Source of the DNA: a virus
DNA length: 64,000 nucleotides
IMG/VR virus record: IMGVR_UViG_3300033142_001406
Coordinates: 1-64,000 of that record
Reading direction: 5' to 3' (one strand)
In this document: positions 32,150 through 59,243 of the stretch, in pieces
Position numbering within the stretch: position 1 is the stretch's first letter
How the letters are laid out: every line of letters starts with the position of its first letter
Notes under the pieces: generated by a model
Told to the model about the DNA's origin: nothing
What the model saw: the letters and a program-made list of their open reading frames with translations, nothing else
Database searches by the model: none
Position numbers and translations under genes: made by a program

Positions 32150-33382
32150 ATGGGCGGGGACTTTGATTCAGAACGAAACGACGGTGGGGACAGCGCAAAC
32201 GACCACGAAAGTGACGCCAACGGCGGGAGTGACCGTAACACTGGTGGAACTGGGCAAAACGCCGGGAATAACCCTTACAACGACGCGTCGGTTCCGGGGG
32301 GTGTTTTAGACTACAACAACGCGATACGCGGTCTGGAGAACTTCGACAACTCGACCACGGGGCTTGAAGACAGCAACAGTGACGGCACTCTGAACTACAA
32401 CAACGCGACGGAAGGTCTGGAAGGGGTACCCGAAGCTCCCCCCGAAATCACTGACGCCGATATAAAAGAACTGATAGAGATGGCGGGCGAACAAGCTAAG
32501 ACCCAGTTTGGCTGGAAAGACGCTATTGGCGGTTTGTTGGGACTCTTGGGGGGAATCCCCGGAATAATTGCGGCGGGGACTGCGGCAACAGTAAAAGCAA
32601 TACAGCGACAAGCCGAAATCAAGGCTGGATTTATAGAAAACGCGCAAGAGTTTGGAATGACTGAAGAAGAAGCCATCCAAGCTTACGAAGATAGGGCGAA
32701 TAGTCAAGGGGGTTACTCCGACAGGGAAGGCAACGGCAACGGTACTTACGAACCTTCCGGGCAAGCCGGGGGTGACGGTAACAGCGGGATATCTAACGGA
32801 ATTTATAACTCTTCCGAAGCTCTTGTAGACAGCCAGAGCAGCACCGATCCTACGGATCTGGAGTCGCTGGCGATGGAACAGTGGGAATATTACAAGAGTA
32901 CTTACCTTCCCTTTGTTAAAGATTTTGCAGCAGAACTTACAACCGACTCCGCTGGTAAGCGGGAGCAAGTTAAAAACACCGCAGCAGCAGACGTTTACTC
33001 GAATCTTGATACAATACAAAGTGGTAAAAAGTCCTCACTTTTTAACGGGGGAATAAACCCCAATTCCGGCAACTACAAATCAGAGATGGCCAGCGTAGCT
33101 TCGACGCGAGGACTGACGGCTGGCACCGCTATAGCGGGTGCTAATCAATCTGTAGATAAAGATTTAGCAGACGGCTCTATCCTCGCTTCTAATATGTCCA
33201 GAGGAATCAAATCAGACGCTTTAGAAGGACTTAGTTCGTCGGCCTACAGCGGCCTATTAAACGATGGCTTAAAGTCGGAAGTAGATAGCTATATTGAACA
33301 ACAGAATATGGCGGCGATGGGCAACCTCGCCGGGGTTGGTGTGGGATTAATAACAGATACTTGGGAGAAAAAGAAAGATTAA
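32150..33382 (+). CDS. Probable internal virion protein, Gly/Asn-rich
   Basis: 410 residues from ATG 32150 with AAGGAG 6 nt upstream. Long Gly/Asn/Asp-rich N-terminus containing two copies of LDYNNAIRGLE/LNYNNATEGLE, one hydrophobic helix (residues about 130-155, GGLLGLLGGIPGIIAAGTAA), then Ser/Gly-rich and helical segments. This pattern occurs in ejected proteins of podoviruses that help build a DNA channel. Confidence 0.6.
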   Translation: MGGDFDSERNDGGDSANDHESDANGGSDRNTGGTGQNAGNNPYNDASVPGGVLDYNNAIRGLENFDNSTTGLEDSNSDGTLNYNNATEGLEGVPEAPPEITDADIKELIEMAGEQAKTQFGWKDAIGGLLGLLGGIPGIIAAGTAATVKAIQRQAEIKAGFIENAQEFGMTEEEAIQAYEDRANSQGGYSDREGNGNGTYEPSGQAGGDGNSGISNGIYNSSEALVDSQSSTDPTDLESLAMEQWEYYKSTYLPFVKDFAAELTTDSAGKREQVKNTAAADVYSNLDTIQSGKKSSLFNGGINPNSGNYKSEMASVASTRGLTAGTAIAGANQSVDKDLADGSILASNMSRGIKSDALEGLSSSAYSGLLNDGLKSEVDSYIEQQNMAAMGNLAGVGVGLITDTWEKKKD

Positions 33383-33836
33383 CCTAATACCGTATATCAA
33401 CTTAAAAGATAACGAATTCAGAGACTTACTAAAGCAAATCGAAACAGACGGAACACTCGAAGACGTTTGCGTACCCAGTATCGAATCCCTTTATACAATC
33501 CTCACACACCCAACCCACCGCACTTTTATTGTCGAGCACAACGACGAGTATAAAGGAATTATATTACTCGAAAATATAAAGGGCCACCGCGCCCAAATCC
33601 ACTTTGTAACGTTTAAAAAATACTGGGGAACCGATCTCTCAGAAGTGGGACGGGCTGTAACTGCCCAACTTCTAACGGTATTTAAAGTGGTATACGGGAT
33701 CATACCTATCAAACCACACTTAATCAAGTATGCCTTATCAGTAGGTATGAAGTATGTGGGAACTCTCCCTTTTTATTTTGACACTTCAGAGGGGCTTATC
33801 TACGAAATACACCGTAAAAACAAAATAGAGGAATAA
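33378..33836 (+). CDS. GNAT-like acetyltransferase; probable AUU start
   Basis: About 152 residues. Translation of this frame gives a continuous protein (LKDNEFRDLLKQIETDG ... TFIVEHNDEYKGIILLENIK ... AQIHFVTFKKYWG ... IKYALSVGMKYVGTLPFYF) with the order of GNAT strands and the late GMKYVG element. The only canonical start, GTG 33645, would remove more than half. ATT at 33378, sharing a base with the upstream TAA and 9 nt after GGAGA, fits. Such phage GNAT-like proteins occur among virion genes; substrate unknown. Confidence 0.6.
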   Translation: MNLIPYINLKDNEFRDLLKQIETDGTLEDVCVPSIESLYTILTHPTHRTFIVEHNDEYKGIILLENIKGHRAQIHFVTFKKYWGTDLSEVGRAVTAQLLTVFKVVYGIIPIKPHLIKYALSVGMKYVGTLPFYFDTSEGLIYEIHRKNKIEE

Positions 33837-33841
33837 ATAAT

Positions 33842-34414
33842 ATGTTCGGATCAAGCGGAAGCAGCGGCAACGACTACGTACCAGAAACCACCGCAACAGA
33901 CACCACCAACGCTATCTCGCGGGAACTTTGGGAGTCTTATCTGGAGTGGGGCGCACCGATAGATCTAAAGACTTTAGACGACTTAAACAATCCAGAAATT
34001 AAACAAGGGCAAGTGGAAACAGCCGGGGATCTGGCACGGGAGTCCTACCAGACTTCCCGCGAATCTTACGAGCGGGGGCTGGACAGATATCACTCACCGC
34101 TCCAGACCGGGGAGGAATCGGACGCACTCAATAAGGCCTTCGACCGGGATTCAGTTATAAGCGAGGTGGACGCGGAGAACCGCGCCGCCAGAGCCTACGA
34201 GGACACTGCTCTATCCCAGAAACAAGGGTTAGTAAACTCTGCCCAAGGCCACCGAGCAGACGTTCAGAACACCTTAAGCGCTTGGACTCAGTATGAGAAT
34301 AAGACAAACTCTATCAACGCAAACGACGACGCAAACGACGCAAGAGATAGATCCCAACTCTGGGGTACTGGGTTGTCTCTTATCGGCAATATCGCCAGTT
34401 CTTTTATCAAATAA
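33842..34414 (+). CDS. Internal virion protein-like
   Basis: 190 residues, ATG. A Ser/Gly N-terminus, helical Arg/Glu-rich middle (TAGDLARESYQTSRESYERGL, ENRAARAYEDTALSQKQGL) and an amphipathic C-terminal end (LWGTGLSLIGNIASSFIK). Alike in style to the 32150 gene. Probably a minor virion or ejection protein. Confidence 0.55.
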   Translation: MFGSSGSSGNDYVPETTATDTTNAISRELWESYLEWGAPIDLKTLDDLNNPEIKQGQVETAGDLARESYQTSRESYERGLDRYHSPLQTGEESDALNKAFDRDSVISEVDAENRAARAYEDTALSQKQGLVNSAQGHRADVQNTLSAWTQYENKTNSINANDDANDARDRSQLWGTGLSLIGNIASSFIK

Positions 34415-34429
34415 AAAGAGGTGTTTAGT

Positions 34430-34831
34430 ATGAGCAAGGGACTAAAACCGCAGACAAGAAGTCAAAAACATATTGCCAGAAGCCCCTTTCAAGACGGGAA
34501 ACAAGAGGCTGCAATATTGCTTCACGCTTATAGAGATTTCAATCGGGCAAAGACAAAACAAGAAAAGGATTTATCCGCGTCGCTGTTGGCTTTGCGGATG
34601 AACGAAACTCCTTATTATCAATCACAATTTGGAATAGGTGGAGACTCTGGCCGGAAGGTTATCGGCTTCTCAAACGTCCCGACTAAAGGGGGACCATCCT
34701 TCACGCCGATAATTCGTAACAGTAAAACCGGAACCACCGGGCCGATGACGAAGAACGCCAGTAACGATCCGCAAGACGAGGTGCTTCACCTCTCAATAGA
34801 TCAATTAACTCAGTACGTTAGAGGGGCTTAA
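34430..34831 (+). CDS. Hypothetical virion-region protein
   Basis: 133 residues from ATG 34430 with GAGGT 7 nt upstream. Basic, with a helical N-terminal half (DGKQEAAILLHAYRDFNRAKTKQEKDLSASLL) and a Gly/Thr/Pro-rich second half. No family recognised. Confidence 0.55.
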   Translation: MSKGLKPQTRSQKHIARSPFQDGKQEAAILLHAYRDFNRAKTKQEKDLSASLLALRMNETPYYQSQFGIGGDSGRKVIGFSNVPTKGGPSFTPIIRNSKTGTTGPMTKNASNDPQDEVLHLSIDQLTQYVRGA

Positions 34832-34832
34832 T

Positions 34833-35969
34833 ATGGGAAGATACAGCGGGTTAAACGCCTTCGCTGAAGGTATGGTTACTGGTAATCTGTTTTACGGGGG
34901 GTTGGTCGACCGGATTGAAGACCGAAGGCAACGAGAACTTGAAAACAAAAGAACAAAGGAAGACAGAGCTATAGCCGCAAAAGAGCGTGACCGCAAACAC
35001 TCTTGGGAAGATATTTCTCACGCGGAAACAATAAAGGGCTACGGCGAGAACGACAAGATCCGAGCAGAAAACGCCGAAATAAGAAAGTATAACGATTGGG
35101 ACCGGAAAAATAAACAAGATAACTATAAAGAGAATCGGAGCTGGGAGAGGACTAAGTTTAATAACAGTCAAACCTTATTCAAAGATACGCTTGAACAGAA
35201 CGACATCACCAGAAATCTCACCAATACCAATCTCGGTATAGCCAATATCAATTTAAAACAGAAAAAACAAGAGCAGGCCCAGCAAAGATATCTTACCTAC
35301 AACGGAAAGCCTTATAAAGTCGAATACGTTGAAGATATATACGATAATAAATACCCAGAACCAAACCCAGCACTCCTTAAAGTGCTGATCGAAGCAGGTC
35401 GGACCACTGAAGCAAATAAGATGCTCGAAGACTACAAAAACTTCAAAAATAAACCCACCAAGGATGAGTTCAAAAATATGTTCGAGTTGTATGGCTTTCC
35501 GCGTACGTGGGAACCGACCCAGCTTGAAATATATAGAAAAAAAGTCGGCGGTGACAAATCCCCACCACCAGATTTTTCGAAGTATCAGATAGGGCGAAGT
35601 GGTGCAACGACTGCGGGACGTAGTGGTGTAATAAAAGGTTTAGGTATTACTGAAAAGGGCGTTAAAGTAGGTTCTTCGGCAAAGGAATTGGGAATTACAA
35701 AAAAGGATATAATTGGGGAATTTAAGATGGGTAGGTGCGCCTTTGTCCGGGGTTATTACTATATCGAAAAATTCAGAGAGGAGCTTGTCGAGGAAACGCC
35801 CTACAACCGGGCGCACACCGAAAAAGTGCCTTATTGGGTAAAGGCAACAAAATCCGAATTGAATAAACTTGACAAGGAAAGCCGCGAAAGCAACGCCGAG
35901 ACAAAAAAGAAAAGAGAGAGTAATCGTAAAATATTTGACGCTTTAAAAGAAATTGGGGGGGAAATCTAA
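34833..35969 (+). CDS. Coiled-coil internal virion protein
   Basis: 378 residues, ATG one base after the previous stop. An extended Arg/Lys/Glu-rich coiled coil runs over residues about 25-150 (RIEDRRQRELENKRTKEDRA), followed by mixed segments and another charged helix at the end (NAETKKKRESNRKIFDALKE). Located before the giant virion gene, as expected for a component of the ejected complex. Confidence 0.55.
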   Translation: MGRYSGLNAFAEGMVTGNLFYGGLVDRIEDRRQRELENKRTKEDRAIAAKERDRKHSWEDISHAETIKGYGENDKIRAENAEIRKYNDWDRKNKQDNYKENRSWERTKFNNSQTLFKDTLEQNDITRNLTNTNLGIANINLKQKKQEQAQQRYLTYNGKPYKVEYVEDIYDNKYPEPNPALLKVLIEAGRTTEANKMLEDYKNFKNKPTKDEFKNMFELYGFPRTWEPTQLEIYRKKVGGDKSPPPDFSKYQIGRSGATTAGRSGVIKGLGITEKGVKVGSSAKELGITKKDIIGEFKMGRCAFVRGYYYIEKFREELVEETPYNRAHTEKVPYWVKATKSELNKLDKESRESNAETKKKRESNRKIFDALKEIGGEI

Positions 35970-35975
35970 AATAAA

Positions 35976-38900
35976 ATGGATCAAAAAGACCTTATAATCA
36001 ATCTGGCCCGCCGTAATAATTTCGACCTTGAAAGAGCACTTAACGACGGGCACTCTTACGAGGATATTTTAGCGTATTTGCAAGAAGAATCGGGAGTTAC
36101 CGGAGAAAGGCCAGAAGGAGATCCCGGTTTTATCGGCGGCGTAAAGGACTTCGGACTCGGTATCGCCAGAGGCGCTCTTGTCTCTCTACCGCAAAAAGTG
36201 GGACAGACATTCCAGCGTTGGGATGACGAAGGTGGGGATGACACTCTCCGAGATTTAGGAATCTCGCTTGAAGAAACTGGAGACGAGAATCTCCAAGAAC
36301 AACCTTGGCTTCAAGAGTCCCGACTGTCTATAGAAAAACGGCAAGAATCCCCTTGGAATATACGAGGCTGGGGTTACTCAGCCGGGGACAGTCTTATTAC
36401 CTCACTCGCCCCGGCAGCGGTGGGTGCGGCGGCGGTAGTCGCGGGGGCACCCGCAGCGGTGGGGGTTGGTATCGGTGTTGTAACGGTCGGTGCTTTATTC
36501 TACGGATCGGAAGCAGAACAAACCTACAGACGTGCCCTCCCAGAACTCGGGCACGAAGAAGCGTTAGAATTGTCCAGACTAACCGGACTGATAGAAGCCG
36601 GGGGAGAGATCGTTGCCGACCTTATCCCGCTCTGGTTTTTTAAAGCACTTCCCAGTCCCGCCAGAAAGAATATCCTCAAAGCCCTTACCTCAAAAAAAGG
36701 TGTCCGGGGGATTATTTGGGATATTATTAAAGTTGAGGCCCTTGAAGTCAGCACTGAAATAGGGCAGTCTACAGCGCAAGGATTAGCCGAAGAAAGATTC
36801 GGTATGGGGGACCAGCCGCTACTTGATAACGCTTTAGCCGTTATCGGTCCGACCCTAATTGTCGGCGGTCTGTATGGTACAGCCGGATCTGTCGGCGGTA
36901 ACGCCCGACGTAGCTGGATGGTGGAAACTCTTAAAGATCCCAAAGCTCCGATAGAAGATAAACGGAAGATTATAGCGGAGATAACCGAAGCAGTTACGAA
37001 GAAAGACGCGGAGCTGGGTGCTGCTTTTTCGAAGCAAGCAACCGCCCTTGCCGAAGCTAAGAAGCCCGTTCTGATTGGGGAGGATAGTAAGTACGAAAGT
37101 AAGAAAGAAACTAAGCAAGAGAGTAAGAAAGAAAGAGAGATAGTAAGTAAGCCAGAGGCAGAGATAGAAAGAGAGACGGACGTTCAGAGAGGGGCGTTAG
37201 ATACTAATTTTATTGCAGATCCTAACGATAGTCTCCAAGTCCAAAATCAAAAAAGAATACGCGGGATAGTTGGACCGGAGGCAAAGGGGAGCACCACTTT
37301 TGAAGATACGTTAAGCGACGGTTCTGAAAGACCCGGAGTAACCCCCTCCCAATTCAACAAGGGATTATCAGAAGAGGTTCTGAAAAACCACTTTGAGGCT
37401 GTTGGAAAACAGAAAGAGGGTGAGGCATCCCGAAATCAAAGTATGCTTATAAAGCGTTTTAATTATACGCTTAACCGCTTTAAGCAGCTTGTAAAGTATA
37501 AAGATACTTACGCTTATTCTCTCCAAGAAATCGGGGATCAATACGAGCAAGCACTCCAAAGTACCAATTTAAGAGATCTTTCTTCAACAAGGGATCTGTT
37601 CACCCGACTACAATCCCAAGAACAAAAAATAACTGAGGTTGACCAGCAACTTATCAAAGCTGCTGAAGACCTCCTCTCCCTTGGGGGCGAGACTAAATCA
37701 GTTGACCAGCAGACTTTAGCCCGTATTCAAAAAGAGATAAATCCAGAGACTTTAAAGCAACAAGCCGAACGAAGACAACAGCTTATCAACGACGCGCAAG
37801 AGCGTGGAAACAAAGTTCTTCAAGAAGCTGAATACAAAAACTCCCCGGAGTACGCAAAGGAAGTTGACAAAGAAAGACAACAGCAAGAAGCGGATCAGAT
37901 TAAAAAAAGACAAGCCGAAACCAAACAAGCCGCCGAAGCTAAAAAGAAGAAAGACGAGCATACCAAAGCTATAGACGACCTTTACGAGAAAACCAAGAAG
38001 AGACTCTCCGAGTCTCCCGTATTTTTAAGAAACGAAGATCTGTCCAAGCAGATCCTAAACGCTATTCACACCGAGCGGTTGGGAGCTGCCGAAATTGAGC
38101 GTGTTATCCGGCAAGCAGAGTTAAATCGTCTGGAAGAGAGTGGAACTCTCCAGAGTATCACCGAGATGATAGAGGACAAACAATCACCCGGCAAAAAAGA
38201 CAAAGGCGCAATAGCGCGGGGTGTTGTCCAGCAAGACAAAGACAAGGCCCAAGCAGCCAAAACAAGGGCTGCTGACAAAAAGACCCAAGAAAAAGCAGAC
38301 GAGGTAACGGAACAAGAACGCCTTGGAGCTGCTGCAATAAAGCGCCGTGACTTAAAGGGAAGATTAAAAGATAAGTACGGTACCAAGAGGCAAAGGAAGA
38401 AGGATGTTGAAGCGGCGGTAAAAGAAAAACAAGAACAAGATCAGAAGGTTGAGGAGCTTGGAGACGAAAAGGGTAGCACTCCCAAGAAGCCGAAGAAGAA
38501 ACAAACTCCTCCTCCGAAAAAGAAATCTGCCCTTCGGGTAAAGCTGGACGATAAGAAGAAAAAGAAAGAGGAGCCTAAACCAAAGCCCCCCAAGAAGAAA
38601 AAGGCTACCCCCGTTGAAAAGAAAGTTGTAACCCCAAGGGTTACACCACCGAAGAAGAAAACCGTTACTGACGCAGCTAAAAAAGAAGCAGCGGCAGAAA
38701 AGAAAAGAGAAGCCGCCGCCAAGAAATATCAGGCCAACAAAAAGAAACGAGAAGCTGACGTTGACGAGAACAACCGCCTCGTCCAGAAGGGCAAGGAGCT
38801 GATCCCGACGATCCGGCTCGAAGATGCGCGGGAAGTCGGAGAGATGGGCGAACTTCTGGAGAAGGGAGAGATCACCCCAGACGAGTGGGACTCTTTTGTT

Positions 38901-41900
38901 GAGCGGATGTTCAAAGAGAACCGAGCAAAAGGTAAGATTAACGAGGCTTTAGGAGACCCGAAAAGAAAGAAAGCCCCACCCAAAGACCCACACGCTAAAC
39001 TGTTTAATAAGAAGAAAACAATCGAAGTTTCCGGCCACACCTTTACCGCGCCGAAGTACAACAGCACCCAAGGGGAGTGGTACACCGAAACAGAGGGTCG
39101 TCGGTTTGTTTTAAGAAAGTCTCCCCCGGAGGATGCTATTGCCCGTCAGTGGTTTGTTCGGGAATTTGACTCCAACAACCCCTCAACGACAAGGGGTGAA
39201 CAGCTTGTCCCGGACAACACCAAAAAAGCCTCTCTCCAGTTTGTCGTTGACGAGTACCTAACTGATAAACCTAAAGATCCCACCGAAGGTGGGAACACTC
39301 CAAAAGGTAAAAGGCCGATAAAGGATGTTAAGACGATCCTAAAAAAGAAGAAAGATTTACCAGATAAGGACAACAGATTCAAGAAGACAACAAAAGAGGA
39401 AAACTCAACCGCAGAAGGGCAGAAGGGGATGTTTGATATAGCCCAAGCAACTGGACCCCTCCGGGGGATGGTTGCAGCTATCGAAAAAGCCGGGGGGATT
39501 TCCCCGGTAAGTTTAAAGGAGATAGATAATATCTCTTCTGAAAAAGAGCTGGACGACCTACGTGAGACTTTGAGAGTAGCTTATAACAAATCGCTCAAAA
39601 AACCAGAGTCAAAACCTTCTAAAAAAAAGAGAAAGAAAGACGAGCGAACTTCTGAAGAGATTCTACTTAATAAAGGTATTGCGGCACTAAACAAAGTTGG
39701 TAAAGCTCAGAAAGAGGAGTTACTTGGTAAGGTTGACGCAGAAATCAAGCTGCTTGAGACTTCGGATGTCTACTACGAAAAAGAGCTGGTAATCAGTCTC
39801 GATAATTCTCCAACCTCCTTCACCTTTTACCGGGAGAATTTCTATAAAAAAACAAATAAAGATGGGTCCAAAGAAACAGTTAAAGTAACTATGCTTGACG
39901 CTTTAAAGGAGTTTAAAAAGAAGCTGACCGCGACCAGCTTTAACGCAGACAGCCCCTATAAAAAACCCCCAGTACAAAATACGACAAGTGTTACAGCTCA
40001 TATTGAAAAACGAGCGTATAAAAAGAAAACACAAAAACCAATACCCCCAAAGGGTAAATATATTCAACCAATATACCAAGACGGGTTTTATTCAAACAGA
40101 CAATATTTAGTTAAGATGGACGACGCGCCCAGTGTGGGAAAGCTCCCGTATGCTACTGGCAAAATAAATATGGAATCTATTTTATCTACGACGGGACTTG
40201 AGGAAGTTACTCTCGGAAAAGAGTATCTTGACACCCGACTTATTCACGATCCAGAATCTCCGATAGCTGCCCACGACGCTGAAAGCGTCATACACGTTGA
40301 ATTTGAGGATGGAGATCTTAAGCACTATATATACAAGACTACGTATATCAACGCCATCCTCACCGAGCACCCCAAAGCAACCCCAAAGCTTCACCCCCCT
40401 ACCGGGATGCTGAAGTTTTTTGACGGGTCTGAAGAGATTGTCGGAATTACGATGCCCGTTGGGAATAATCTTAAGGTCGGTAGTACAACGGGCCTAATAC
40501 CAGCAATAAAGGAGGAGCTGGGTATAGATCCTACTGACCCAGCTCATATGGCAGAGTTTGATAGGATGAGGGCAACTGAGTTTAAACTTAATAAGATTTA
40601 TAAGAAGACCGGAGTACGGTATCTTGCTGGACTCCCAAGAGGCACTTGGTACGATCCAGCAGGTAAAGAAATTATAGGCAAGCAAATATCTGAACTGACA
40701 AACCTTTCTCACGCAGAGGTAGAGGGTATCGAGAGTTTGGGCAAGCTCAGTATGAAACTGGGTGGGAGATCCGATAAATACAGCCCACTACAAGTCGCAG
40801 AAGCGCTCTATAACGCGGGTATGAGTGGGAACAAGGGGTTTGCAAGAATCCCCCGAAAGAAGCGCACCTTTATTACCAACGGGGATGACGTGTTTGAAAT
40901 AAGAGATTCGGGGTGGGGGAATCCTCTCGTATTCCCAGTGGTAAGTGCCGGACACTTTACCCTTTCCGACGAGCAGATATTAAGTATTCAAACCGAGTAT
41001 AAAGAAAAAGACCAGCAGACCTTTACAATACCAGATAACCCCGACGTTTCCTTTACAACTGGTCAAAAAACAAATCAGAACCCGATTTCAGAAACCCAAA
41101 TAAAACAAGCCTTTAAGGGCCAATCTGTCATATTGACGGGCAAAAAAACTTATTCAGTTCGCTTCCAGAATGGACGCGGAGCGACTATAAAAATCGTAGA
41201 CCAGACCCCCGAAGGAAGTGTTCTAATCGAAGCCAAAGGCGGGGTACTTAACCGGAACGGCCAGTTGATCGCCGGAAAGCAGTACGGAACGACAATCGAG
41301 CTTGTTGAGGGTGTGGCTACCGAAGACGTGCTCACGCACGAAATACAGCACCTTTTAGAGCGTATAGGGGTAGTAACACCCGCAGACGTTAAAGTGCTGG
41401 ACAAGGCCGTAATAAGGGCGTCTAAACGTAACAAACTTGCATACGAGTTGCACTCAGACCCAAGGGAGAACCGCGCTTACTTCATCCAGCAGCTTATCAG
41501 AGAAAGAAAGGACGGTCGGGGGACCGTCACTGGGAGAGTAGTACAAAAGATAAAAGACTTCTTCTCCAAGCTGGCGAAGAGTATATTCGGTATTGAGTCT
41601 GCTAGTAATATAGCAAGAGAACTGGAGAGTGGCGAGATTTTTAAACGAGAAGCTATAAAACAGCAAGAACTACCAATCTCCACTGAGCAACCACTTTACT
41701 CCACCGTAAACGGGTTTGACCACCTCAAGATCAAGTCAACCGCAACAAAGGCAATCCGTAATACCAATATGGGCAAGAAGTCCCTCTGGGACAATATTAA
41801 AGATACGAAAGACTTTATTCTCGGAGATATAAAGGGAAACGCGAAGAGGGGTAAGAACCACTTCGTAGAGCAATATCTCGATAGATATAAGTATCTTAAG

Positions 41901-44537: not shown

Positions 44538-44538
44538 T

Positions 44539-44787: not shown

Positions 44788-44797
44788 ACAGCAAGAA

Positions 44798-47387: not shown

Positions 47388-47398
47388 AGGGAAGTAGA

Positions 47399-48569: not shown

Positions 48570-48731
48570 TCTATTTCTCTTTCTCTTTGTGTGTGTGTGA
48601 ATCAGTGACGTTTCAAGGCTCCCCCCAAGGTGCCACCACGCCTTGTACTTCGCTATCGGCTCTCCGACAAGCCTCCGTAACGGAGCCGGGTGAAAGCACT
48701 TGACCTTGCACCGTTACTGGTAAAGTACGTA
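48570..48731. other. Structured noncoding stretch
   Basis: 162 nt between the HicB-like gene and DUF3310. CAAGGC near 48617 can pair with GCCTTG near 48648, and CTCCG-TAA-CGGAG is a small hairpin near 48675. Possibly an RNA element or leader for the HicB-like gene. No open frame. Confidence 0.3.
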
Positions 48732-49284: not shown

Positions 49285-49289
49285 ATTAT

Positions 49290-50292: not shown

Positions 50293-50294
50293 AT

Positions 50295-52280
50295 CTAAGA
50301 TACCCCCTTATAGAATTGACGATTAGGATAATCCTTTTCTCGACGGACCGCCGCCCAGTGCTTTGTATTTGTTAAGAAACCAACTATTCTCGTAAAATTA
50401 TTTATAATCGGGGACTTGCAAATATTGCAAGTGTCTTTCCTCCCGACGGTCATATGACCGTTCTCACATTCTTGGAGATTGTAGTTCACAGCCCAATAAA
50501 TCACTCCCCGTTTTGCAGCCATTCTGATAAGCTTTTCCATATCCTCAACGTCTTCAATTCTCTCTTCGACGTTGACGTGACAGATTGCACCTCCCGAGAA
50601 CATCCCGTCGAATTTCCCTTGTATTTCAAGACGTTCAAGCAACGTAGCCTCCGCTTGCAGCGGAATAAACTGATTGCTATAAAAGGGCAGATTGGCTTTG
50701 TTAAACCCAAGATATTTGTCCTTAGTTGCCAGCTTGATTGCTGAACTTTCGGCTGGTACTTGCTCGATATTGTGAGGCGTTTTGTGCCTCTTCTGAGCAA
50801 TCTTAGATACAAGGTCTAAGGCCCGTATGATACGTTCTGCGACGTTCTGACCAGTTTCTGATACTATACTATGCCCCAGCAGCTCAACGGCCTCGTATAG
50901 CCCCGTTATTCCTATCGTTGAGTATTGTTTACTCAACTCCATATAACCAAGATCATACAACGGGAGTGCTCCCCGAGCGATCCTATCAGCGAGAATGGAA
51001 CGCTTCGCAGCGTTAATCTTGACCGCTTTCCCGGCAACCAGACAGATTTCGTGGATAACTGCTGGGAAGTCGTTGGGATTTGTTCTGAGTGTTTCCTCAA
51101 CCAACCGGGGAAGGTTGATAGTACAAACTCCTAAACTTCCGATCTTTGTACTTCCAGATCCAAAGCTGTTAAAATACTCGTTTCGAGTGTCGGATCTCAA
51201 GCGACAACAAGAACTTAGCGTACTTGACTTACCACAGTAGATATTGATAAACCCGTATTTTTTGTTCTCTTCAGCAATCAGCTTGAGGAAGCCTTCGTCT
51301 TGAATTTCACCCTCGTCGTTAACGGTGAAGCAAGCCGTTGTTACCGGGAAAGTGATTGGGGCGCGGCGTAACTCTTCATTCATAACTTCCAAATAAACAC
51401 GTTGTAAATTTTCTACTGTAGTAAACGTGGGGATAGCGCCGTCTTTAAATTTATAATCTTTTACGAGTGATTCCAAGAAGTTATCGTCAAAGACGCTGAT
51501 ATTAACGAACGGACTTTCAGCACCCCTCATAGGGAAGTTGAAACCGTAGATTAGGGAAGTTAAAGTCTCTCTTACGTAAGTCCAAACATCCTCTTCAGTA
51601 TTCCCAACCACGATATTCCCATCCCGGAATATCGCGTACTCGAATACTTCACAATCTTCTTTAAAATCTCTGAACGATACAAACTGCTCTATATCGTTAA
51701 ATTCTAATATCTTATCAATATAGTAAGCCATACAAATCAGCAGGTCAGCGAGTCCGGTGGCCCCAGCGGTACTCTGGGAGGCGTTGACAACGAACTGCTC
51801 AATCTGGCTCTTAAAAGTAAAGAGCGATTTGGGGGGCAAAGAGCGCACCTTTGCGCCCATCTGAAGTCCTCCAAGCGCAATATCGTAGCAGCTATAGTTA
51901 AAGCAGTAAGGCTTCGCAAGAGAGTGGAAGTCGTTGATATAAATTCTTCCAACAAGCTGATCTTCTAATATCTGGTTTGCGGTTTGGAGATCGTAAAGAT
52001 CCCGCAACTCTTGCCAGAGGAGAAAGTATGAATTGTAACGCTGAAAGGGCTTAGAAGCCTCGTAATTATAGGCAATTACGTCTTTTGTAGCAACGTTGCT
52101 GTTGCTGTCCACCGAAGCGTCGGCGGTGGTTGTTTTGTTTTTGAAAAACTCCTTCGCGAATAAATTCTGGTCTAATTGCTTTCCTATCCCGTCGATATCA
52201 AACAGTTCTTTTCCGTACTTGCTCCACAAGTACATCATAACTGTATCGAAGTCTGAGTCGTAACCAACTTTAATAAACAC
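50295..52280 (-). CDS. nrdD: Anaerobic (class III) ribonucleoside-triphosphate reductase
   Basis: 661 residues from GTG 52280 with GGAGG upstream; the open frame extends further but overlaps the upstream gene. It reduces NTPs to dNTPs through a glycyl radical. The C-terminal RIVGFL holds the radical Gly (about residue 634) and the zinc site is CENGH...CNICKS just before it. Internal landmarks include GAESPFVNISVFDDNF and SCCRLRSD. No aerobic nrdA/B is visible in the window, so the phage appears to depend on the oxygen-sensitive enzyme. Confidence 0.9.
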   Translation of the reverse strand: MFIKVGYDSDFDTVMMYLWSKYGKELFDIDGIGKQLDQNLFAKEFFKNKTTTADASVDSNSNVATKDVIAYNYEASKPFQRYNSYFLLWQELRDLYDLQTANQILEDQLVGRIYINDFHSLAKPYCFNYSCYDIALGGLQMGAKVRSLPPKSLFTFKSQIEQFVVNASQSTAGATGLADLLICMAYYIDKILEFNDIEQFVSFRDFKEDCEVFEYAIFRDGNIVVGNTEEDVWTYVRETLTSLIYGFNFPMRGAESPFVNISVFDDNFLESLVKDYKFKDGAIPTFTTVENLQRVYLEVMNEELRRAPITFPVTTACFTVNDEGEIQDEGFLKLIAEENKKYGFINIYCGKSSTLSSCCRLRSDTRNEYFNSFGSGSTKIGSLGVCTINLPRLVEETLRTNPNDFPAVIHEICLVAGKAVKINAAKRSILADRIARGALPLYDLGYMELSKQYSTIGITGLYEAVELLGHSIVSETGQNVAERIIRALDLVSKIAQKRHKTPHNIEQVPAESSAIKLATKDKYLGFNKANLPFYSNQFIPLQAEATLLERLEIQGKFDGMFSGGAICHVNVEERIEDVEDMEKLIRMAAKRGVIYWAVNYNLQECENGHMTVGRKDTCNICKSPIINNFTRIVGFLTNTKHWAAVRREKDYPNRQFYKGVS

Positions 52281-52455
52281 CCCGTAGCACCTCCGTATAT
52301 ATCTTTTTTGCGTCTTGATATTTCCGACGCCGACCAACGGCGTAAACCACCCCCGTCTTGGGGTGCTGGACGTACTTCTTTTCAGCACTGATACCGTGAC
52401 GTTCGCAAATCCGATTGACAATCTTTCTTAATCTTTTCGCTTGTTTACCGTTCAT
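52270..52455 (-). CDS. Small basic hypothetical protein
   Basis: 61 residues from ATG 52455, sharing ATGA with the dut stop. Basic throughout (KQAKRLRKIVNRICERHG, VGRRRKYQDAKKIYTEVLRG), suggesting nucleic-acid binding. It overlaps the nrdD start by 11 nt. Confidence 0.55.
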   Translation of the reverse strand: MNGKQAKRLRKIVNRICERHGISAEKKYVQHPKTGVVYAVGRRRKYQDAKKIYTEVLRGVY

Positions 52456-52886
52456 CCCGTTACCCCCGTACAACCCCAACCGCCGTCTCCCCGGTCGGTT
52501 GCCCAAAGAGTATCTACTTCGACAAATTCAGCCCGGATAACCGGGGCAATCACCCCTTGGGCGATTCTATCGCCGGGGGAGATTCTCCACACCCGCTTAG
52601 AATTATTTCTAATAATTAGAGTAACTTCTCCGGTGTAACCAGAGTCGATTGTTGCTGGAGAGTTGACAAGGTAGTTGGGAAAGTCTTTTGAAAGACCGCT
52701 ACGCTGCCGGATCTGGAGTTCAAACCCAAACGGAATCCCGAAGGATAACCCGGTCCCGAATACCCCGTAGTGACCGGGCTGGATCTTCTTTCCGACCAAC
52801 GATCTAAGATCAAAGCCAGCATCCCCAACGTGCTTGTACGTTGGGAGCACTGCGTCGTGGTTAACTTTGCTTATCTCGATACGCAC
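52452..52886 (-). CDS. dut: dUTPase
   Basis: 144 residues, GTG with GGAGA upstream. All five motifs of trimeric dUTPases occur in order: GDAGFDLRS, IRQRSGLS, TIDSGYTGEV, GDRIAQG and RGDGGWGCTG. It hydrolyses dUTP to dUMP, supplying thymidylate precursors and keeping uracil out of phage DNA. Its neighbours are nrdD and the nuclease genes. Confidence 0.92.
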   Translation of the reverse strand: MRIEISKVNHDAVLPTYKHVGDAGFDLRSLVGKKIQPGHYGVFGTGLSFGIPFGFELQIRQRSGLSKDFPNYLVNSPATIDSGYTGEVTLIIRNNSKRVWRISPGDRIAQGVIAPVIRAEFVEVDTLWATDRGDGGWGCTGVTG

Positions 52887-53343
52887 TGTGATTAGCTCTC
52901 CTTTTTTGAGGTTTCAACCAGCTTTTTGGCATCCGACTATAGGCCCAGATTATATTGTGTTTTGTGGCCCACTCTCCGTATGTCGTATTAGATCCTTTGT
53001 TGATCGGGTTGTTTGGCCGCTCAAAGATCAGCCTAAAATCAACGTCGGGATATTGGGTTTTAATTGCTAATATCTTCTGCCGTCCATCTATTGTAAGTCG
53101 TCCTTTATACTCGATAATCAGCACCGACCCGTCGTCGCGAGTAACCCGGAAGTCTGGAAGGTAAGTTCTAATTTTAGGTTGCCACCTCATCCGGGCATCC
53201 TTCGGTTCGTACTCCCAAGTTGTCCCCAGCTTGGAAAGCTGGGCTGCAAGAAGAGACTCCCCTTCAGACCGGAACTGATTAACTCCGTCGCTGTATGACT
53301 TTCTTTTTTTCTTACCCTTCCTCTTTCTTAGTCTCTTGACCAA
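52861..53343 (-). CDS. T7-type endonuclease I (Holliday-junction resolvase)
   Basis: 160 residues, TTG with AAGGAGG 7 nt upstream. A basic N-terminal tail is followed by FRSEGESLLAAQL, TWEYEP, YLPDFRV (Asp), VLIIEYKGRLT (Glu and Lys), PDVDFRLIFERPNNPINKGS and TTYGEWATKHNI, as in phage T7 gp3. It resolves branched DNA and degrades host DNA. Overlaps the dUTPase start by 26 nt. Confidence 0.88.
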   Translation of the reverse strand: MVKRLRKRKGKKKRKSYSDGVNQFRSEGESLLAAQLSKLGTTWEYEPKDARMRWQPKIRTYLPDFRVTRDDGSVLIIEYKGRLTIDGRQKILAIKTQYPDVDFRLIFERPNNPINKGSNTTYGEWATKHNIIWAYSRMPKSWLKPQKRRANHSAYRDKQS

Positions 53344-53776
53344 TATTCGCCTCCTTGATTAACTCGAATTGATATTTTGGTATATCTATCAAGGGCTTAT
53401 CCTTATCTCCCCGCTTCTTGAATCCACCCATCCGACGCTCAAACTCCAGATCGTCGTTGATCGGAACGGAGATAACAGACCCGCACCGCCACCCGGAAAC
53501 GTAGTATGCTGGTACTTTATCCAGCTTTGACAAGGCCAGCATATAATCGTATTTGCTTTCGTCCAGATAGACAGTCTCAAGTTTCGAAAGGATATAACTC
53601 CTTGATTTAACTTCAATATATCCGACAAGGTGTTTATTGAACTCAATAAAGAAGTCTACCCGGTGCCACTGAGGAAACTGGTGGAGGATGTGACCGTCGT
53701 GGGTTGACTCCCAGACTTGCTTAAGATACTGTTCTGACTCCCAATCCTTATAAGTAAATATATCTTTTACCACCAC
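53312..53776 (-). CDS. PD-(D/E)XK nuclease-like protein
   Basis: About 154 residues if it starts at GTG 53776 or 53773, close to GGCGAGGAG; a TTG at 53809 would add 11 residues overlapping the exonuclease. WHRVDFFIEFNKHLVGYIEVKSRSY has the Asp and Glu-x-Lys of a PD-(D/E)XK core, with helices and strands around it. The second half (VSGWRCGSVISVPINDDLEF) is unassigned. Role in DNA processing inferred from the fold and neighbours. Confidence 0.6.
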   Translation of the reverse strand: MVVKDIFTYKDWESEQYLKQVWESTHDGHILHQFPQWHRVDFFIEFNKHLVGYIEVKSRSYILSKLETVYLDESKYDYMLALSKLDKVPAYYVSGWRCGSVISVPINDDLEFERRMGGFKKRGDKDKPLIDIPKYQFELIKEANIGQETKKEEG

Positions 53777-54663
53777 TCCTCGCCTTCGCAGAGTGACTTG
53801 AATCTGCAATAACTTTTACAGCGGGTTCCCCGATCTTTGCGCTCTTCAATAAAGTAGTTTTGTTTTTTATTACTCTGGATGCGCTTTGCCAGCTCAACTT
53901 CAGCAGCCTCCCGATCTTCAAAAACTCTTAGGGCGCGTTTGCCGCCGACTTTAAGGACAGCGAACGTTGACGGGTCTTTCCACCTTTCTAAGTCTGTACA
54001 AATAGGAAGGTGTTCTTCCTCCAGAAGCTTGACGTTCCGGTGCTCTTCAATACGGTGTTTGAGGTAATCAAGCTGATCAGCTTCTTGCCAAAGCGGAATT
54101 GGAATCTGAGTAAAACGGGTCTGCGGATATTCTGGGTTTGCGTCGGCTTGCTTCTGGTTCCACCCGTCCATAACTGCAATAACAAACAATTGATTAATCT
54201 CTATATCCTTGGATTTCTTAGCCATATAAGCGTAAAGATTGAGCTGGTTAGTCCACTCGGCTATCTTCTTTTTGACTACTTTGAAGACGTTACACGTTTT
54301 GATATCGTAAAGAACATCTTTGCGGATAATATCGGGACAGCCGGAAACCTTAGCCCCGTAAACGTCTAAAAATAAACGTTGCTCACATACGTAGCCAGAA
54401 AGCAGATTAAGTCCAGCCTCAAAGTGAGAGTGGACAGCATCCCCTCTGACTCCAGCCAGAGTGCTATTAATTGCTGTTTTTTCTCGTTTAACATACGGAT
54501 ATAACACCTTTAACCGGGCAAGCCGGGTTGAGTCAATCAACTCTGTTACGCTGAAATCAGCCTCCCCCTTTGAGTATTTGCCCATATTAGCTATCAGCAA
54601 ATCAAATACTGGTTTAATATGTTTTACGTCGTCGTAGTGTTCTGGATATTTAATATTTCTAAT
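53767..54663 (-). CDS. RecB/Cas4-type exonuclease with C-terminal cysteine cluster; AUU start
   Basis: 298 residues if begun at ATT 54663, where a perfect AAAGGAGG lies 7 nt upstream and the frame is open. The first canonical starts are TTG 54600 or ATG 54585, which lack a Shine-Dalgarno. Core motif: GCPDIIRKDVLYDIKTC (residues about 110-126). C-terminal cysteines CKSYCRFKSLC fit the iron-sulphur cluster of PDDEXK_1/Cas4-like exonucleases. It probably processes DNA ends with the SSB and polymerase encoded alongside. Confidence 0.8.
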   Translation of the reverse strand: MRNIKYPEHYDDVKHIKPVFDLLIANMGKYSKGEADFSVTELIDSTRLARLKVLYPYVKREKTAINSTLAGVRGDAVHSHFEAGLNLLSGYVCEQRLFLDVYGAKVSGCPDIIRKDVLYDIKTCNVFKVVKKKIAEWTNQLNLYAYMAKKSKDIEINQLFVIAVMDGWNQKQADANPEYPQTRFTQIPIPLWQEADQLDYLKHRIEEHRNVKLLEEEHLPICTDLERWKDPSTFAVLKVGGKRALRVFEDREAAEVELAKRIQSNKKQNYFIEERKDRGTRCKSYCRFKSLCEGEEWW

Positions 54664-54708
54664 ATTTATACCTCCTTTGGGGAGCCGATAGGCTCCCTTG
54701 GTAAACTG

Positions 54709-55308
54709 TTAGTAAAGCACGTTGTCGTCCAGATCGCCGCTTCCACCCTTGAGCGCGGAGTTGTCAGACTCTGTTACTTTACCCGAGGCACCCCCCTTGA
54801 TAAACGCCTCAAAAGACTCAGCATTCTCTAAAAGAATCATTCTGATTCCCTCTTGAGTGAGGGTCTTCTTGAGCGCCTTTCCAAACACCTCTTGATTGCT
54901 TGCCAGATTGCCAAGCAATTTAACGGATGCCTCAATTGCTGAAGTGCGGATGATCTCCTCCGGGGATCTGAACTGACCCGCTGCTGGAGACTGAAAACTA
55001 CCCCCTCCTCTGCTCTTTGATTGAGAAGAGGAGCCTCCTCCTCCCCCGGCTCCCAGCTTCGAAACCCCTTCAACTTTCCAAAACTGGCCGTCTTTGACCA
55101 TCTTTATATTGATCTCGTCCCCAGCTTTGAAGTCTCTGAAATCACTTGCTATATCATCCCAAGTGGGTATGTCCTTTTTCCAAGTGTCTGCGGAATACTG
55201 ACCACTCTGGTCTTTCTTGTTTCCGACAAGAAATAGTACGTCGTAATCCTTCCCGGCTTTTGAGGTTCTCTTTTCTTCAGTTACGTCTTTTGTTAGTTTT
55301 ACGATCAA
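54709..55308 (-). CDS. Single-stranded DNA-binding protein
   Basis: 199 residues, TTG with AAGGAAA upstream. Strand-rich N-terminus (residues 1-85, IVKLTKDVTEEKRTSKAGKD, FKAGDEINIKMVKDGQFWKV) like an OB fold, a Gly/Ser-rich linker, a helical part, and an acidic aromatic tail (SGDLDDNVLY) typical of SSBs, used to recruit partners. Gene order SSB, exonuclease, resolvase supports the call. Confidence 0.7.
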   Translation of the reverse strand: MIVKLTKDVTEEKRTSKAGKDYDVLFLVGNKKDQSGQYSADTWKKDIPTWDDIASDFRDFKAGDEINIKMVKDGQFWKVEGVSKLGAGGGGGSSSQSKSRGGGSFQSPAAGQFRSPEEIIRTSAIEASVKLLGNLASNQEVFGKALKKTLTQEGIRMILLENAESFEAFIKGGASGKVTESDNSALKGGSGDLDDNVLY

Positions 55309-55311
55309 GAT

Positions 55312-55950
55312 TTAGTTTCCTTTTTTTTTGTCTTTGATTAGGTATTCGGGGAAAGCAATCTGCTTCAGAATTTCAACGCAGAACTCCCGCCACTCGTACC
55401 ACTTGTGGTTTTTTCGTTGGTAAATAATATTCTGTAAAGTCTTATAGTTACAATTGACGAGGCGGGTATAGTGGAAGCCTACCGGGGCGTTTTCGACCGC
55501 CCCCTCAAAGTCTCCGCACTCAATATATTCGTTGACGATATCCAGAGTGCGTTGGTCAACGTGCTTCCCGCAGTTCTCTTTTTTGATAGCACCCCGTTTT
55601 AGAATGGTGTGCATCATACTGTCAGATTGTTTAGTAATTCCAACTCGATAGGTATCAAATTGATCCCAGAATTTAAGAGTGGCCTCTACTACAAACCATA
55701 CTTGGATTGACTCCAAAAACTTATTGTGACCGCCTTGGGCGTGGGCTAAACTTCTCGCGATTTCTTCTAAGTAAGCCATACTGGGAGGTTTATTTTCTAT
55801 AACTTCGTTGTTCCGGTAATCAAACGCTGTCATCTCCCACGCTGGGTGATTGTCGGTTAAAAACATATACTTACGGGAGATATCGTGGCTTAAGCCCAGC
55901 CCCAGAAGGGCTTCTTCGTAGCCACGCTCCTCTATAACTTTTACTTTCAA
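55312..55950 (-). CDS. ThyX-like phage protein
   Basis: 212 residues, TTG with AAAGGAGG 8 nt upstream. VVEATLKFWDQFDTYRVGIT, then KQSDSMMHTILKRG and LVNCNYKTLQNIIYQRKNHK, EWREFCVEIL recall the thymidylate synthase X arrangement (flavin-dependent dUMP methylation), but the ThyX signature RHR...SxR is not intact here. Phage proteins of this kind are usually annotated as hypothetical. Lying beside dUTPase and RNR genes suggests nucleotide metabolism; activity is uncertain. Confidence 0.5.
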   Translation of the reverse strand: MKVKVIEERGYEEALLGLGLSHDISRKYMFLTDNHPAWEMTAFDYRNNEVIENKPPSMAYLEEIARSLAHAQGGHNKFLESIQVWFVVEATLKFWDQFDTYRVGITKQSDSMMHTILKRGAIKKENCGKHVDQRTLDIVNEYIECGDFEGAVENAPVGFHYTRLVNCNYKTLQNIIYQRKNHKWYEWREFCVEILKQIAFPEYLIKDKKKGN

Positions 55951-55971
55951 AATTAACCTCCTTTTATTTTT

Positions 55972-56048
55972 TGGAAGACCAGATAGGAGTCGAACCTATA
56001 TCACCCTGCGTCAAAGGCAGGTGCTCCACCGGATTGAGCTACTGGCCT
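55972..56048 (-). tRNA. tRNA-Gln (anticodon UUG)
   Basis: 77 nt with encoded CCA. Acceptor AGGCCAG pairs with CTGGTCT (one G-T). D-arm stem GCTC/GAGC; anticodon stem CCTGC/GCAGG around loop CTTTGAC, anticodon TTG (reads CAA); T-arm ATAGG-TTCGACT-CCTAT. Its 5' end overlaps the polA stop (TAG): the A and G of the stop are the first tRNA bases. It must be cut from the polA transcript by RNase P and a 3' nuclease. It may supply Gln-CAA, which is common in the Gln-rich virion genes. Confidence 0.92.
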
Positions 56049-57921
56049 ACGCTGATATTTTCTCTATCTCCCCATAGTTAGGACCCGCTTCCGCGTCCCC
56101 AGCCAACCGGACGTTGAAATCGCAACCGAAGTATCGGCTGATATAGAGAGGGAGTTTACGGAACACATCCAGACAGATCTTAGCTACTGGCTGCACCTCT
56201 TCGTTAGGACAATCCAGAACTAACGAATCGTGGACTTGACAGATAACCAAAGAGGTAAACTCCCCTTTTTTAAGCTCTTTTCGGATCAACAGCATCGCCA
56301 AACAAACAATATCGCCGCTGGCGAACCCTTGGACCGGATAGTTCTTGATCTGGTTTTCCGAATAGTTCCCCCGAAGATCCCGTTTGAATCTTAGGATGCG
56401 ACCAGAGGGGAGCTTAAGATATCCGTTTTCCTCAACAAATTTGATATTTCGATTCTGCCATTCCTTAATTTTAGAATACTTTTGATAGAAGCGGTCTATC
56501 GCGATCTGCCACGCTTTACGCGATAATTTGGGCATATTGGGATCGTCAAAGAAGCCTTGAGCTGTCCGACCGTAAATCAAACCAAACAGCAAAGCTTTTG
56601 CTGCATCCCGAAACTTCGCGTCCCCAAAAAACTTAATCGCGTTATCGGTGTGAGCGTCCAGACCGTCAGCGATCTCTTTTATTGCAGTCCAATCTTGCGC
56701 AAAAAAGGCAACAACTCTCCACTCGATCTGAGAGAGATCGACGTTAAGGATCTGGTCGTAGCGAGGAAGGAAAAGCCTCTTAACCGGGGCTGTACGGCTC
56801 TTCGGCAAGTTCTGCCCGTTGGGGTTTGAAGAAGAAAATCGGCCAGTATTTGTTGCTGTATTATTAAAGGAAGGGTGGATAATTCCGTTAACAGATTTCT
56901 TTGGGAGACCGACAAAATAAGTCCCCCGTTGTTTCTCAAGCTTGGATCTCTCTTGTAATAATTTGAGTACCCGCTTTTGCCTCTTGTCTTTTGTTTTGAG
57001 CTTTGCGAGGACGTTCTTATTTACAAAATAGTACCCGTCTTTCTTGGTTTGGGACCGGGGGAGGGGGCTGATCCCCAACCCCTCGATTCGGGTTGGTGTG
57101 ATACACTTTCTTTCGTATTGCTTTATCCGACCACCTTTTAATTCTCTTTCAACAGTCTCCGTTCCTTCCCGCTTTATAACACCGCCGTAAAGCCCCGCAG
57201 ACAGCTCGTCGTCAGAGTTTAAGCGGATATCGAAACCAAACAACCCGATTAGTTCGGAGTCAATATCCGCTATTTTCTCTGCATACTCAGCCGCATACTC
57301 TGCGGCCAGCGCGGAGTCAAACCTCATCCCGTTCGTTTCCACGTCGGCAAGCATACCGACGATCCCACAGTGGAGCCGGACAACTTTAGACAGTCCCTCC
57401 TTTCTTATCTGTCCCCGTTGTCTCTGATAAATAGCCAGTGTGTTGATACAATCTTGCTCTAAATAAGGATTAAGAACGGACAGAGGTATCTCGTCCGTCT
57501 CATACCCGCTGTCCCAATAAGTTTTAACAAGATCAATTTTATCTGGAATTCCGTATCGTTTGGACAGATAGTCCAGCGACGGGTATTTTATTTGCTGGCC
57601 GGATAGAATATATTCTGCCGTCGAAGTGCAGAATACTTTTGAGTCGGGACAGACCAGCCCGACCGAGCTTAACCAGTACAGATCAAACTTAAAATTGTGG
57701 CCGCAGACAAGCGCTGCGTTGTCAATCTCCTTTTGTATTTCAGCAAGTTTAACGTTGTCGGGAACAAGGCTGCTATCGACCTCTGAGTGATTAAACACCC
57801 ACACTTGGGTAGTTCCATCCTCTCTCGCTACCCCAATTGAAACGAGAAAAGAATCGTCTAACCAAGGAAGATGATTAGGTTTTTTAGAAGTCTCTACGTC
57901 CAGCCCTATACAGTATGTCAA
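56047..57921 (-). CDS. polA: DNA polymerase I (family A) with 3'-5' exonuclease domain
   Basis: 624 residues, TTG with AAAAAGGA upstream. 3'-5' exonuclease domain at the N-terminus with Asp8 and Glu10 (LDVETS) and HNFKFD; no 5' nuclease. Polymerase motifs: DLSQIEWRVVAFFAQ (A), RDAAKALLFGLIYGR (B) and VHDSLVLD (C). Replicates the phage genome with the primase and helicase genes directly upstream. The stop codon overlaps the tRNA. Confidence 0.92.
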   Translation of the reverse strand: MTYCIGLDVETSKKPNHLPWLDDSFLVSIGVAREDGTTQVWVFNHSEVDSSLVPDNVKLAEIQKEIDNAALVCGHNFKFDLYWLSSVGLVCPDSKVFCTSTAEYILSGQQIKYPSLDYLSKRYGIPDKIDLVKTYWDSGYETDEIPLSVLNPYLEQDCINTLAIYQRQRGQIRKEGLSKVVRLHCGIVGMLADVETNGMRFDSALAAEYAAEYAEKIADIDSELIGLFGFDIRLNSDDELSAGLYGGVIKREGTETVERELKGGRIKQYERKCITPTRIEGLGISPLPRSQTKKDGYYFVNKNVLAKLKTKDKRQKRVLKLLQERSKLEKQRGTYFVGLPKKSVNGIIHPSFNNTATNTGRFSSSNPNGQNLPKSRTAPVKRLFLPRYDQILNVDLSQIEWRVVAFFAQDWTAIKEIADGLDAHTDNAIKFFGDAKFRDAAKALLFGLIYGRTAQGFFDDPNMPKLSRKAWQIAIDRFYQKYSKIKEWQNRNIKFVEENGYLKLPSGRILRFKRDLRGNYSENQIKNYPVQGFASGDIVCLAMLLIRKELKKGEFTSLVICQVHDSLVLDCPNEEVQPVAKICLDVFRKLPLYISRYFGCDFNVRLAGDAEAGPNYGEIEKISA

Positions 57922-57980
57922 TATTCTCTTTCCTTTTTACTTAGTTACTTTCTTACCTACCCTCTTACTCTCTTACTTAC
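57922..57980 (-). repeat. GTAA-type repeat spacer between helicase and polymerase
   Basis: Minus strand: the helicase stop TAA lies in AAGTAAGTAAGTAAGAGAG, followed by further GTAA/GAGA units and then the polA Shine-Dalgarno. Same type as 14503-14602. TAA occurs in all three frames. Confidence 0.7.
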
Positions 57981-59243
57981 TTACTTCTTTTTGTGGGTAC
58001 TGATCCGGCAAAGATCTTTGTCGATTCTGGCAACTATCGGAACGTTATTGTTGCCGTTGATCTTGTTCTTGGAAACGTAAACATACCTTGTATTTTCGTA
58101 GGTTTGCCCTTCCATCTTACCGATACCGATAGCAACATCCAGCTCACCTTGAACACCCACTTTAGACTGGTCAATATAGATCATATCGAGCCACTGGCGA
58201 TTCTGAGCTTTTTTATCTGCTTGACCTATTGTAATAAGAGTTACTTGGTATTCTTTTGCTAAATCGCGGTAAGCTTCAAATAATTCTTGGAGTCTTTCGT
58301 GCTTAGATTCTGTCTTAGACCCGGTTAGCTGGACCTTCGGTCCTTGATCAATCACGCAGACAACTGGCTTATATTGTTCAAGATATTGCCGAATAGCAGC
58401 AATCGTCTTCACCTGCCCGATAGTGACCAGATTCTCACCGCCGTTCTCCTTGTAGATCCTATCAGCAGTCTCCGGGTCCTCTGAAATCCGGTCCTTAGTC
58501 GCGCCTAACAACGCGCTGTAGGTTCTTAGCCTAAGACGCAAGATAGACTCCTCGTTTCCCAGATAGAGCAACTTCTTTTCTGTCCCCCGGAGCTGGTACG
58601 CAAAGTGGGACAGCTCAGAAATACAAAACGCAGACTTGCCCGTTTCTGGCCTCGCAAAAACGTGGATCAGCGTCCCCGGTATCGGGGGGCCTATCACGTC
58701 GTTGAGGGGGGCCAGCCGCCACTCCAGCCCCTCCCTCGGCGTTACGCTCTCTATCAGATCCGCTACACCTAAAGAGCACACCCTCTCGGAGTCTGTCCCC
58801 TCTTCTTCTGCTGTGAGTCCCTTTATATTGGTATTGTACTGGTCAATTAATTCTCGGACTGCTGGGAGGTTGTTCTCTCCAGTTCCGCTGCTCATAGGAA
58901 TCATCTCTTGGATGATAGCAGCGCTCACACTCTGAGCAACCAACTGATCCAAACACTCAAATACCAAGGAAGGATTTGTATCTTTGTGTTTTCTAATATT
59001 ATCAAAGACTTCGGCGTAAGCCGATTTATCCTTCGTCGCGGGATTTTCCAGCCAGAAAAGAGTCTCTAACTCCTCCGGTGTGATCTTTTGGGTATCGGAA
59101 TACTTTTCGTAAAATCTCTTTACGGTGGCGACAGTGCGTTTAAACACCGCGTCTTGCGCGGGTAACTCACTAATATACTTGATTGTTTTTAGGTAGGTAG
59201 GTTTGTCCAGCAAAGCACTTAAGATAATTGCTGTATTGTCAAT
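57981..59243 (-). CDS. Replicative DNA helicase (DnaB/RecA-like ATPase); probable AUU start
   Basis: 420 residues if started at ATT 59243 (shares a base with the upstream TGA; GAGGAG 11 nt upstream); a CTG one codon earlier is also possible, and TTG 59213 would cut off AIILSALL. N-terminal helical domain, then Walker A ARPETGKS (about residue 190), YLGNEES, CVIDQGPKVQL (Walker B) and VTLITIGQADK. It unwinds the fork; the primase is encoded separately, unlike the fused T7 gp4. The C-terminus ends HKKK at the GTAA repeat. Confidence 0.85.
   Translation of the reverse strand: MDNTAIILSALLDKPTYLKTIKYISELPAQDAVFKRTVATVKRFYEKYSDTQKITPEELETLFWLENPATKDKSAYAEVFDNIRKHKDTNPSLVFECLDQLVAQSVSAAIIQEMIPMSSGTGENNLPAVRELIDQYNTNIKGLTAEEEGTDSERVCSLGVADLIESVTPREGLEWRLAPLNDVIGPPIPGTLIHVFARPETGKSAFCISELSHFAYQLRGTEKKLLYLGNEESILRLRLRTYSALLGATKDRISEDPETADRIYKENGGENLVTIGQVKTIAAIRQYLEQYKPVVCVIDQGPKVQLTGSKTESKHERLQELFEAYRDLAKEYQVTLITIGQADKKAQNRQWLDMIYIDQSKVGVQGELDVAIGIGKMEGQTYENTRYVYVSKNKINGNNNVPIVARIDKDLCRISTHKKK

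Follow-up and report, generated by a model that had tools for sequence, protein, structure and literature searches.

At least four core genes of an uncultured tailed phage lack canonical start codons and probably begin at AUU, AUC or CUG

At least four core genes of an uncultured tailed phage, encoding the terminase large subunit (TerL), the replicative helicase, an exonuclease, and a GNAT-fold protein, have no ATG, GTG, or TTG in a homologue-compatible frame. In the explanation that we regard as probable, these genes lost their canonical starts and would now use near-cognate codons, offset by a Shine-Dalgarno (SD) sequence or an overlapping stop codon, with low but sufficient expression. The window analysed here is a stretch of 64,000 nucleotides, bases 1-64000 of an uncultured virus record spanning 68,137 bases.

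The window has tailed-phage gene content, including terminase, portal, capsid, integrase, and a ParA-like protein; the PHROG tally covers 25 of 56 families. The minus strand carries a replication block of primase, helicase, family A polymerase, exonuclease, an endonuclease I-like protein, and dUTPase, adjoined by NrdD and a radical-SAM protein. For one 14-kb stretch of the window, GenBank phages gave no near match. The closest relatives reached were IMG/VR phages obtained via polymerase and TerL queries, with identities of 39-46% for the polymerase and up to 57% for TerL. Single-protein scans with the exonuclease or the GNAT protein found no viral relatives.

The missing starts were assessed by a homology-bounded test, which asked whether any ATG, GTG, or TTG lies upstream of the conserved block shared with other phages (plus 4 codons). 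In the first set, 4 of 22 window genes were without a canonical start, compared with 7 of 247 in eleven relatives (Fisher 0.008). The extended set gave 4/28 and 12/433, respectively (Fisher 0.012; one G020 gene enters the 12 twice, through overlapping stretches), both Fisher values treating genes as independent, which genes within one phage are not. The flagged window genes were the four named above. Candidate starts and SDs were also tabulated for 79 hand-listed ORFs, and in this table clear SDs followed by TTG or GTG start many window genes. The table bore out the original prediction that at least four genes lack ATG, GTG, or TTG in the right place. For at least four genes, near-cognate initiation is in our view the reading that fits best, and the claim that several genes use AUU or AUC starts is therefore supported with two amendments: one of them probably starts at CUG, and TerL, absent from the earlier list, is added.

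Among the 12 flagged genes of the relatives, one was judged after the fact to be a clean near-cognate case, the TerL gene of phage G013. With this case alone counted, the post hoc Fisher value for 4/28 in the window against 1/433 in the relatives is 5e-5, on the same assumption of independence. The others, not clean, were fragments, short ORFs, or an interrupted gene. Two ORFs were flagged in L006, one of them holding the second half of a helicase that is split in two. L007, G002, L098, and G026 had no near-cognate codon before the conserved block, and the flagged ORFs of G015 and G020 were short with weak pairing. Those of G024/G025 belong to one phage whose TerL is interrupted and were set aside.

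The features at the exonuclease start are as follows.
53767 to 54663, minus strand: exonuclease, PD-(D/E)XK/Cas4-like, candidate start ATT 54663-54661 (phrog_2139, 1e-35).
54671 to 54678, minus strand: Shine-Dalgarno sequence AAAGGAGG, 7 nt from ATT 54663, duplex −13.5 kcal/mol.
54680 to 54697, minus strand: 7-bp hairpin GGGAGCC-TATC-GGCTCCC from fold prediction, immediately 5' of the exonuclease SD.

The exonuclease frame is open, and its first ATG, GTG, or TTG does not occur before codon 37. The perfect AAAGGAGG lies 7 nt upstream of ATT 54663, as had been claimed, and the ATG of the best homologue, in phage G015, aligns gaplessly with this codon: G-G-I-I-M(ATG)-K in G015 and G-G-I-N-I(ATT)-R in the window, encoded by GGA GGA ATT ATA ATG AAA and GGA GGT ATA AAT ATT AGA, respectively. 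Ten more homologues have ATG or TTG starts near the same position. Anti-SD pairing as strong as that of the exonuclease ATT was found for 2 of 411 in-frame internal ATT/ATC codons. The hairpin at 54680-54697 is without a T-run.

For the helicase, two features overlap at the start.
57981 to 59246, minus strand: DnaB-like helicase, candidate start CTG 59246 (preferred) or ATT 59243 (phrog_19, 7e-37).
59243 to 59434, minus strand: 63-aa ORF (ATG 59434), ending in a TGA that overlaps the start of the helicase, C-TGA-TT.

Helicase relatives have ATG, TTG, or GTG starts at the corresponding place. The original prediction put the helicase start at ATT 59243; a non-canonical start stands, and for the exact codon CTG 59246 fits better, because the SD lies 7 nt from CTG but 10 from ATT, and TTG ATA GAC of G015 aligns with CTG ATT GAC of the window. 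A MAFFT alignment with the G002 helicase favoured ATT 59243. The 63-aa leader ORF had no homologue among the relatives' ORFs. A canonical codon was available in 90 of 90 exonuclease homologues elsewhere and in 51 of 51 alignable helicase homologues (80 loci, 29 not alignable at the N-terminus), some contigs recurring under several locus ids in this survey, which indicates that the change is not conserved outside the window phage. In L006:5931-7148, a stop divides the helicase gene into two adjacent open frames.

The GNAT gene directly follows a longer gene.
33378 to 33836, plus strand: GNAT-fold protein, candidate start ATT overlapping the upstream stop, ATTAA.
32150 to 33382, plus strand: upstream gene of 423 codons, whose TAA 33380-33382 overlaps ATT 33378.

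No canonical codon occurs in the GNAT frame until codon 98. Homologues start at the same place or a few codons off (M-N-L / I-N-L), and TTG AAT of G002 aligned against ATT AAC of the window. The AlphaFold model of the protein (four sequences, mean pLDDT 85) showed a GNAT fold, with the first strand (residues 2-5) beginning directly after ATT. The top Foldseek matches were SpeG-type GNATs (E 2e-9). The frame, the homologue starts, and the predicted fold all agree with the earlier choice of ATT 33378.

The TerL start region comprises two features.
14633 to 16060, plus strand: terminase large subunit, candidate start ATT 14633 or ATC 14618 (phrog_2, 4e-23).
14563 to 14637, plus strand: putative 24-codon basic ORF (GTG), whose TGA overlaps ATT 14633, ATTGA.

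The TerL frame runs EREKDIALESIDYKILPTYAKIINDPNPYIFCRGPVGSGKS, and its first ATG, GTG, or TTG is TTG 14750, downstream of Walker A. In the homologues, the TerL Met lies two codons before I-D-Y. Among 31 homologues with aligned N-termini (35 loci), this column holds ATG in 15, TTG in 3, GTG in 2, ATC in 3, and other codons in 8; in the window the column is GAA, with ATC three codons before it and ATT two after. Alignment with homologous N-termini was exact for the exonuclease, the helicase CTG, and the GNAT protein (one homologue each), and the 2-3 codon offset of the TerL candidates counts against the preferred explanation. The 24-codon ORF ending on ATT 14633 is of low complexity and may be non-coding.

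The G013 TerL gene has ATC exactly in the Met column, an open and intact 494-aa frame, and an upstream pairing of −15.8. The G013 sequence AAAGGGGGCGAGCCCCATC (L387:14228-14246) lies before the TerL frame, an SD-like G-run in a small hairpin beside ATC, and is not present in the aligned G002 sequence. L215/L216 (G024/G025), whose contigs are 99.5% identical and represent one phage, also have ATC in the TerL Met column. This gene was set aside as not clean, owing to an in-frame TGA within Walker A and an HNH-like ORF (by eye) directly upstream. Recoding of TGA in L215/L216 is not supported, because TGA is absent from the interior of the 708-aa portal frame.

A further candidate was proposed in a small protein gene.
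5584 to 5871, minus strand: small protein, candidate start ATC 5871, within the 3' end of the preceding gene (5828-6172).
4340 to 4636, minus strand: paralogue, with an ATG start at 4636.

The small protein was said to align with its paralogue up to the ATC codon. The match itself exists (E 2.6e-4 in the set search, 3e-5 pairwise), and the pairwise alignment covers residues 36-76 only, stopping short of the codon. The case for ATC 5871 as a start is weak, because the N-terminal alignment rests on reading by eye. The minus strand from 1765 to 10488 carries a row of small ORFs, many alike, several matching MarR/winged-helix proteins.

Start-codon use was counted with a rule-based start choice, for genes that have homologues in two or more other genomes. 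The 18 window genes gave ATG 6, TTG 5, GTG 2, and none 5, compared with ATG 261, GTG 19, TTG 16, and none 10 for 306 genes in the other genomes. On this comparison, the phage has moved away from AUG as a whole, and the near-cognates look like the extreme of the same shift. In an earlier, smaller count, 22064-22930 appeared as a start-less gene, an artefact in which TTG 22079 falls outside the search span; the fifth gene without a start among the 18 is most likely this one again. An unsupervised EM start model with all 61 codons free assigned ATT to 2.6 of 56 genes and weighted AGA equally, so the start signal lies near noise without homology, and the model was rejected.

The strength of the SD pairing differed among the near-cognate cases. 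It was unusually strong for the exonuclease and for G013 TerL, and not for the GNAT gene, the helicase, or the window TerL; of the 411 internal ATT/ATC codons, 25, 46, and 60 paired as strongly as the TerL ATC, the helicase, and the GNAT start, respectively. The stop of an upstream ORF of at least 40 codons overlaps the start of the GNAT gene and the helicase only, and such overlaps occurred at 3 of 215 internal ATT codons vs 7 of 53 canonical starts. The exonuclease SD and the stop overlaps favour weak initiation rescued by strong SD pairing or by termination-reinitiation, most likely giving low-dose expression. In this mechanism, AUU, AUC, or CUG would have replaced ATG, GTG, or TTG in the four genes and would be read by the host initiator tRNA. 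Strong SD pairing would offset weak start recognition in the exonuclease, and the overlapping upstream stop would deliver ribosomes at GNAT ATTAA, helicase CTGATT, and perhaps TerL ATTGA. Expression would be low yet enough for low-copy enzymes, in a genome with a relaxed AUG preference overall, and the rare start signals, which ordinary gene finders would overlook, probably keep these phage proteins scarce.

It is possible, though rather doubtful, that the phage and its host have relaxed start discrimination and that AUU, AUC, and CUG are ordinary start codons. If so, standard gene callers would cut short or overlook an appreciable fraction of genes, terminase included, also in some related phages.

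The suggestion that the near-cognate starts act as IF3-sensitive switches, tying phage enzyme levels to the state of host initiation factors, is plausible from the literature and, for this phage, unlikely. E. coli infC, as here, has an AUU start, and pcnB is another E. coli gene with one; both belong to the host and serve autoregulation or copy control, whereas the phage genes here are known from sequence alone. According to PMC5472188, IF3 represses non-canonical starts, infC itself starts with ATT/ATC, its AUU being discriminated against by IF3, and the GTC start of Streptomyces sigR is IF3-repressed; for E. coli infC fidelity mutants the paper cites a 3- to 15-fold rise. IF3 overproduction alters M13 propagation and SD-less re-initiation (PMC2268962). 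Conservation would be expected of such a switch, yet the exonuclease and helicase homologues do not share the near-cognate starts, and the pattern is also explained by a general loss of AUG preference, offset by strong SDs and overlapping stops. No initiation-factor family turned up when the predicted proteins of the window, and 10 proteins of the next 4 kb, were matched to Pfam.

Frameshifting or stop readthrough could bring ribosomes in from upstream ORFs, as a GTG with AAGGA at 14591 stands upstream of TerL, three codons before an in-frame TAA, and small ORFs terminate on the TerL and helicase starts. We consider this improbable; homologues start at or a few codons from the near-cognates, and an N-terminal extension is not expected. 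Assembly or sequencing errors are conceivable in an uncultured-virus contig and are still less probable, as they would have to hit four or five separate sites, each one codon in an otherwise intact frame, and the second phage G013 likewise has ATC in the TerL Met column. Translation from the downstream canonical codons TTG 54600, TTG 59213, and TTG 14750, with the upstream homology an untranslated relic, is the least probable of all, since all three are without SDs and such starts would cost TerL its Walker A, the GNAT protein more than half of its length, and the exonuclease part of its conserved first segment.

Near-cognate starts with low expression, as we propose for these phage genes, have counterparts in known systems. 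In poor medium, S. aureus genes with an AUU/AUA start and an extended SD reached about 10% of the expression obtained with AUG; cvfC1 (AUU), ccpN (AUA), and infC (AUA) resemble the present genes in combining a near-cognate with an extended SD, theirs with reduced expression (PMC13009471). Those starts are experimentally mapped, in single host genes, and conserved, whereas here several phage core genes are involved, predicted from the DNA and unconserved between phages. The rare start of sigR was misannotated by gene finders and gives a functional low dose (PMC5472188). It differs from the phage genes in its codon, GTC, and in a regulatory stoichiometry demonstrated by mutation. In termination-reinitiation pairs, such as M13 gene VII, the stop overlaps or adjoins the next start as here, but the pairs described in the accessible parts of PMC6728339 and PMC2268962 are ATGA or TGATG, with ATG, in contrast to ATTAA or CTGATT.

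Near-cognate starts are regarded as very rare; in a start-switch reconstruction for annotated genes, 1 of 61,358 ancestral AUG starts changed to AUU and 2 to CUG (PMC5622118). Among the papers listed by searches for AUU/ATT or near-cognate starts in phages, in a collection with few subscription journals, we recognised none on a phage with several such genes. A phage with four or five core genes so changed would offer a natural test bed for the rescue of weak starts by strong SDs and overlapping stops. Where start calling admits only ATG, GTG, and TTG, hallmark genes of uncultured phages, terminase among them, can be misplaced.

Two further observations were made in the window. A lone tRNA-Gln (TTG anticodon; 55972-56048, minus strand) sits between two replication genes, whereas a tRNA scan of seven relatives' loci showed none. 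Low-complexity AGTA/TAAG arrays occur at 14498-14616, 57937-57986, and 37086-37151, located upstream of TerL, between helicase and polymerase, and within the longest ORF, respectively; their TAAG repeats give stops in all frames. With at most one mismatch, AGTAAGTAAG had 15 matches, compared with an average of 5.7 in shuffles, 0 of 100 reaching 15 or more.
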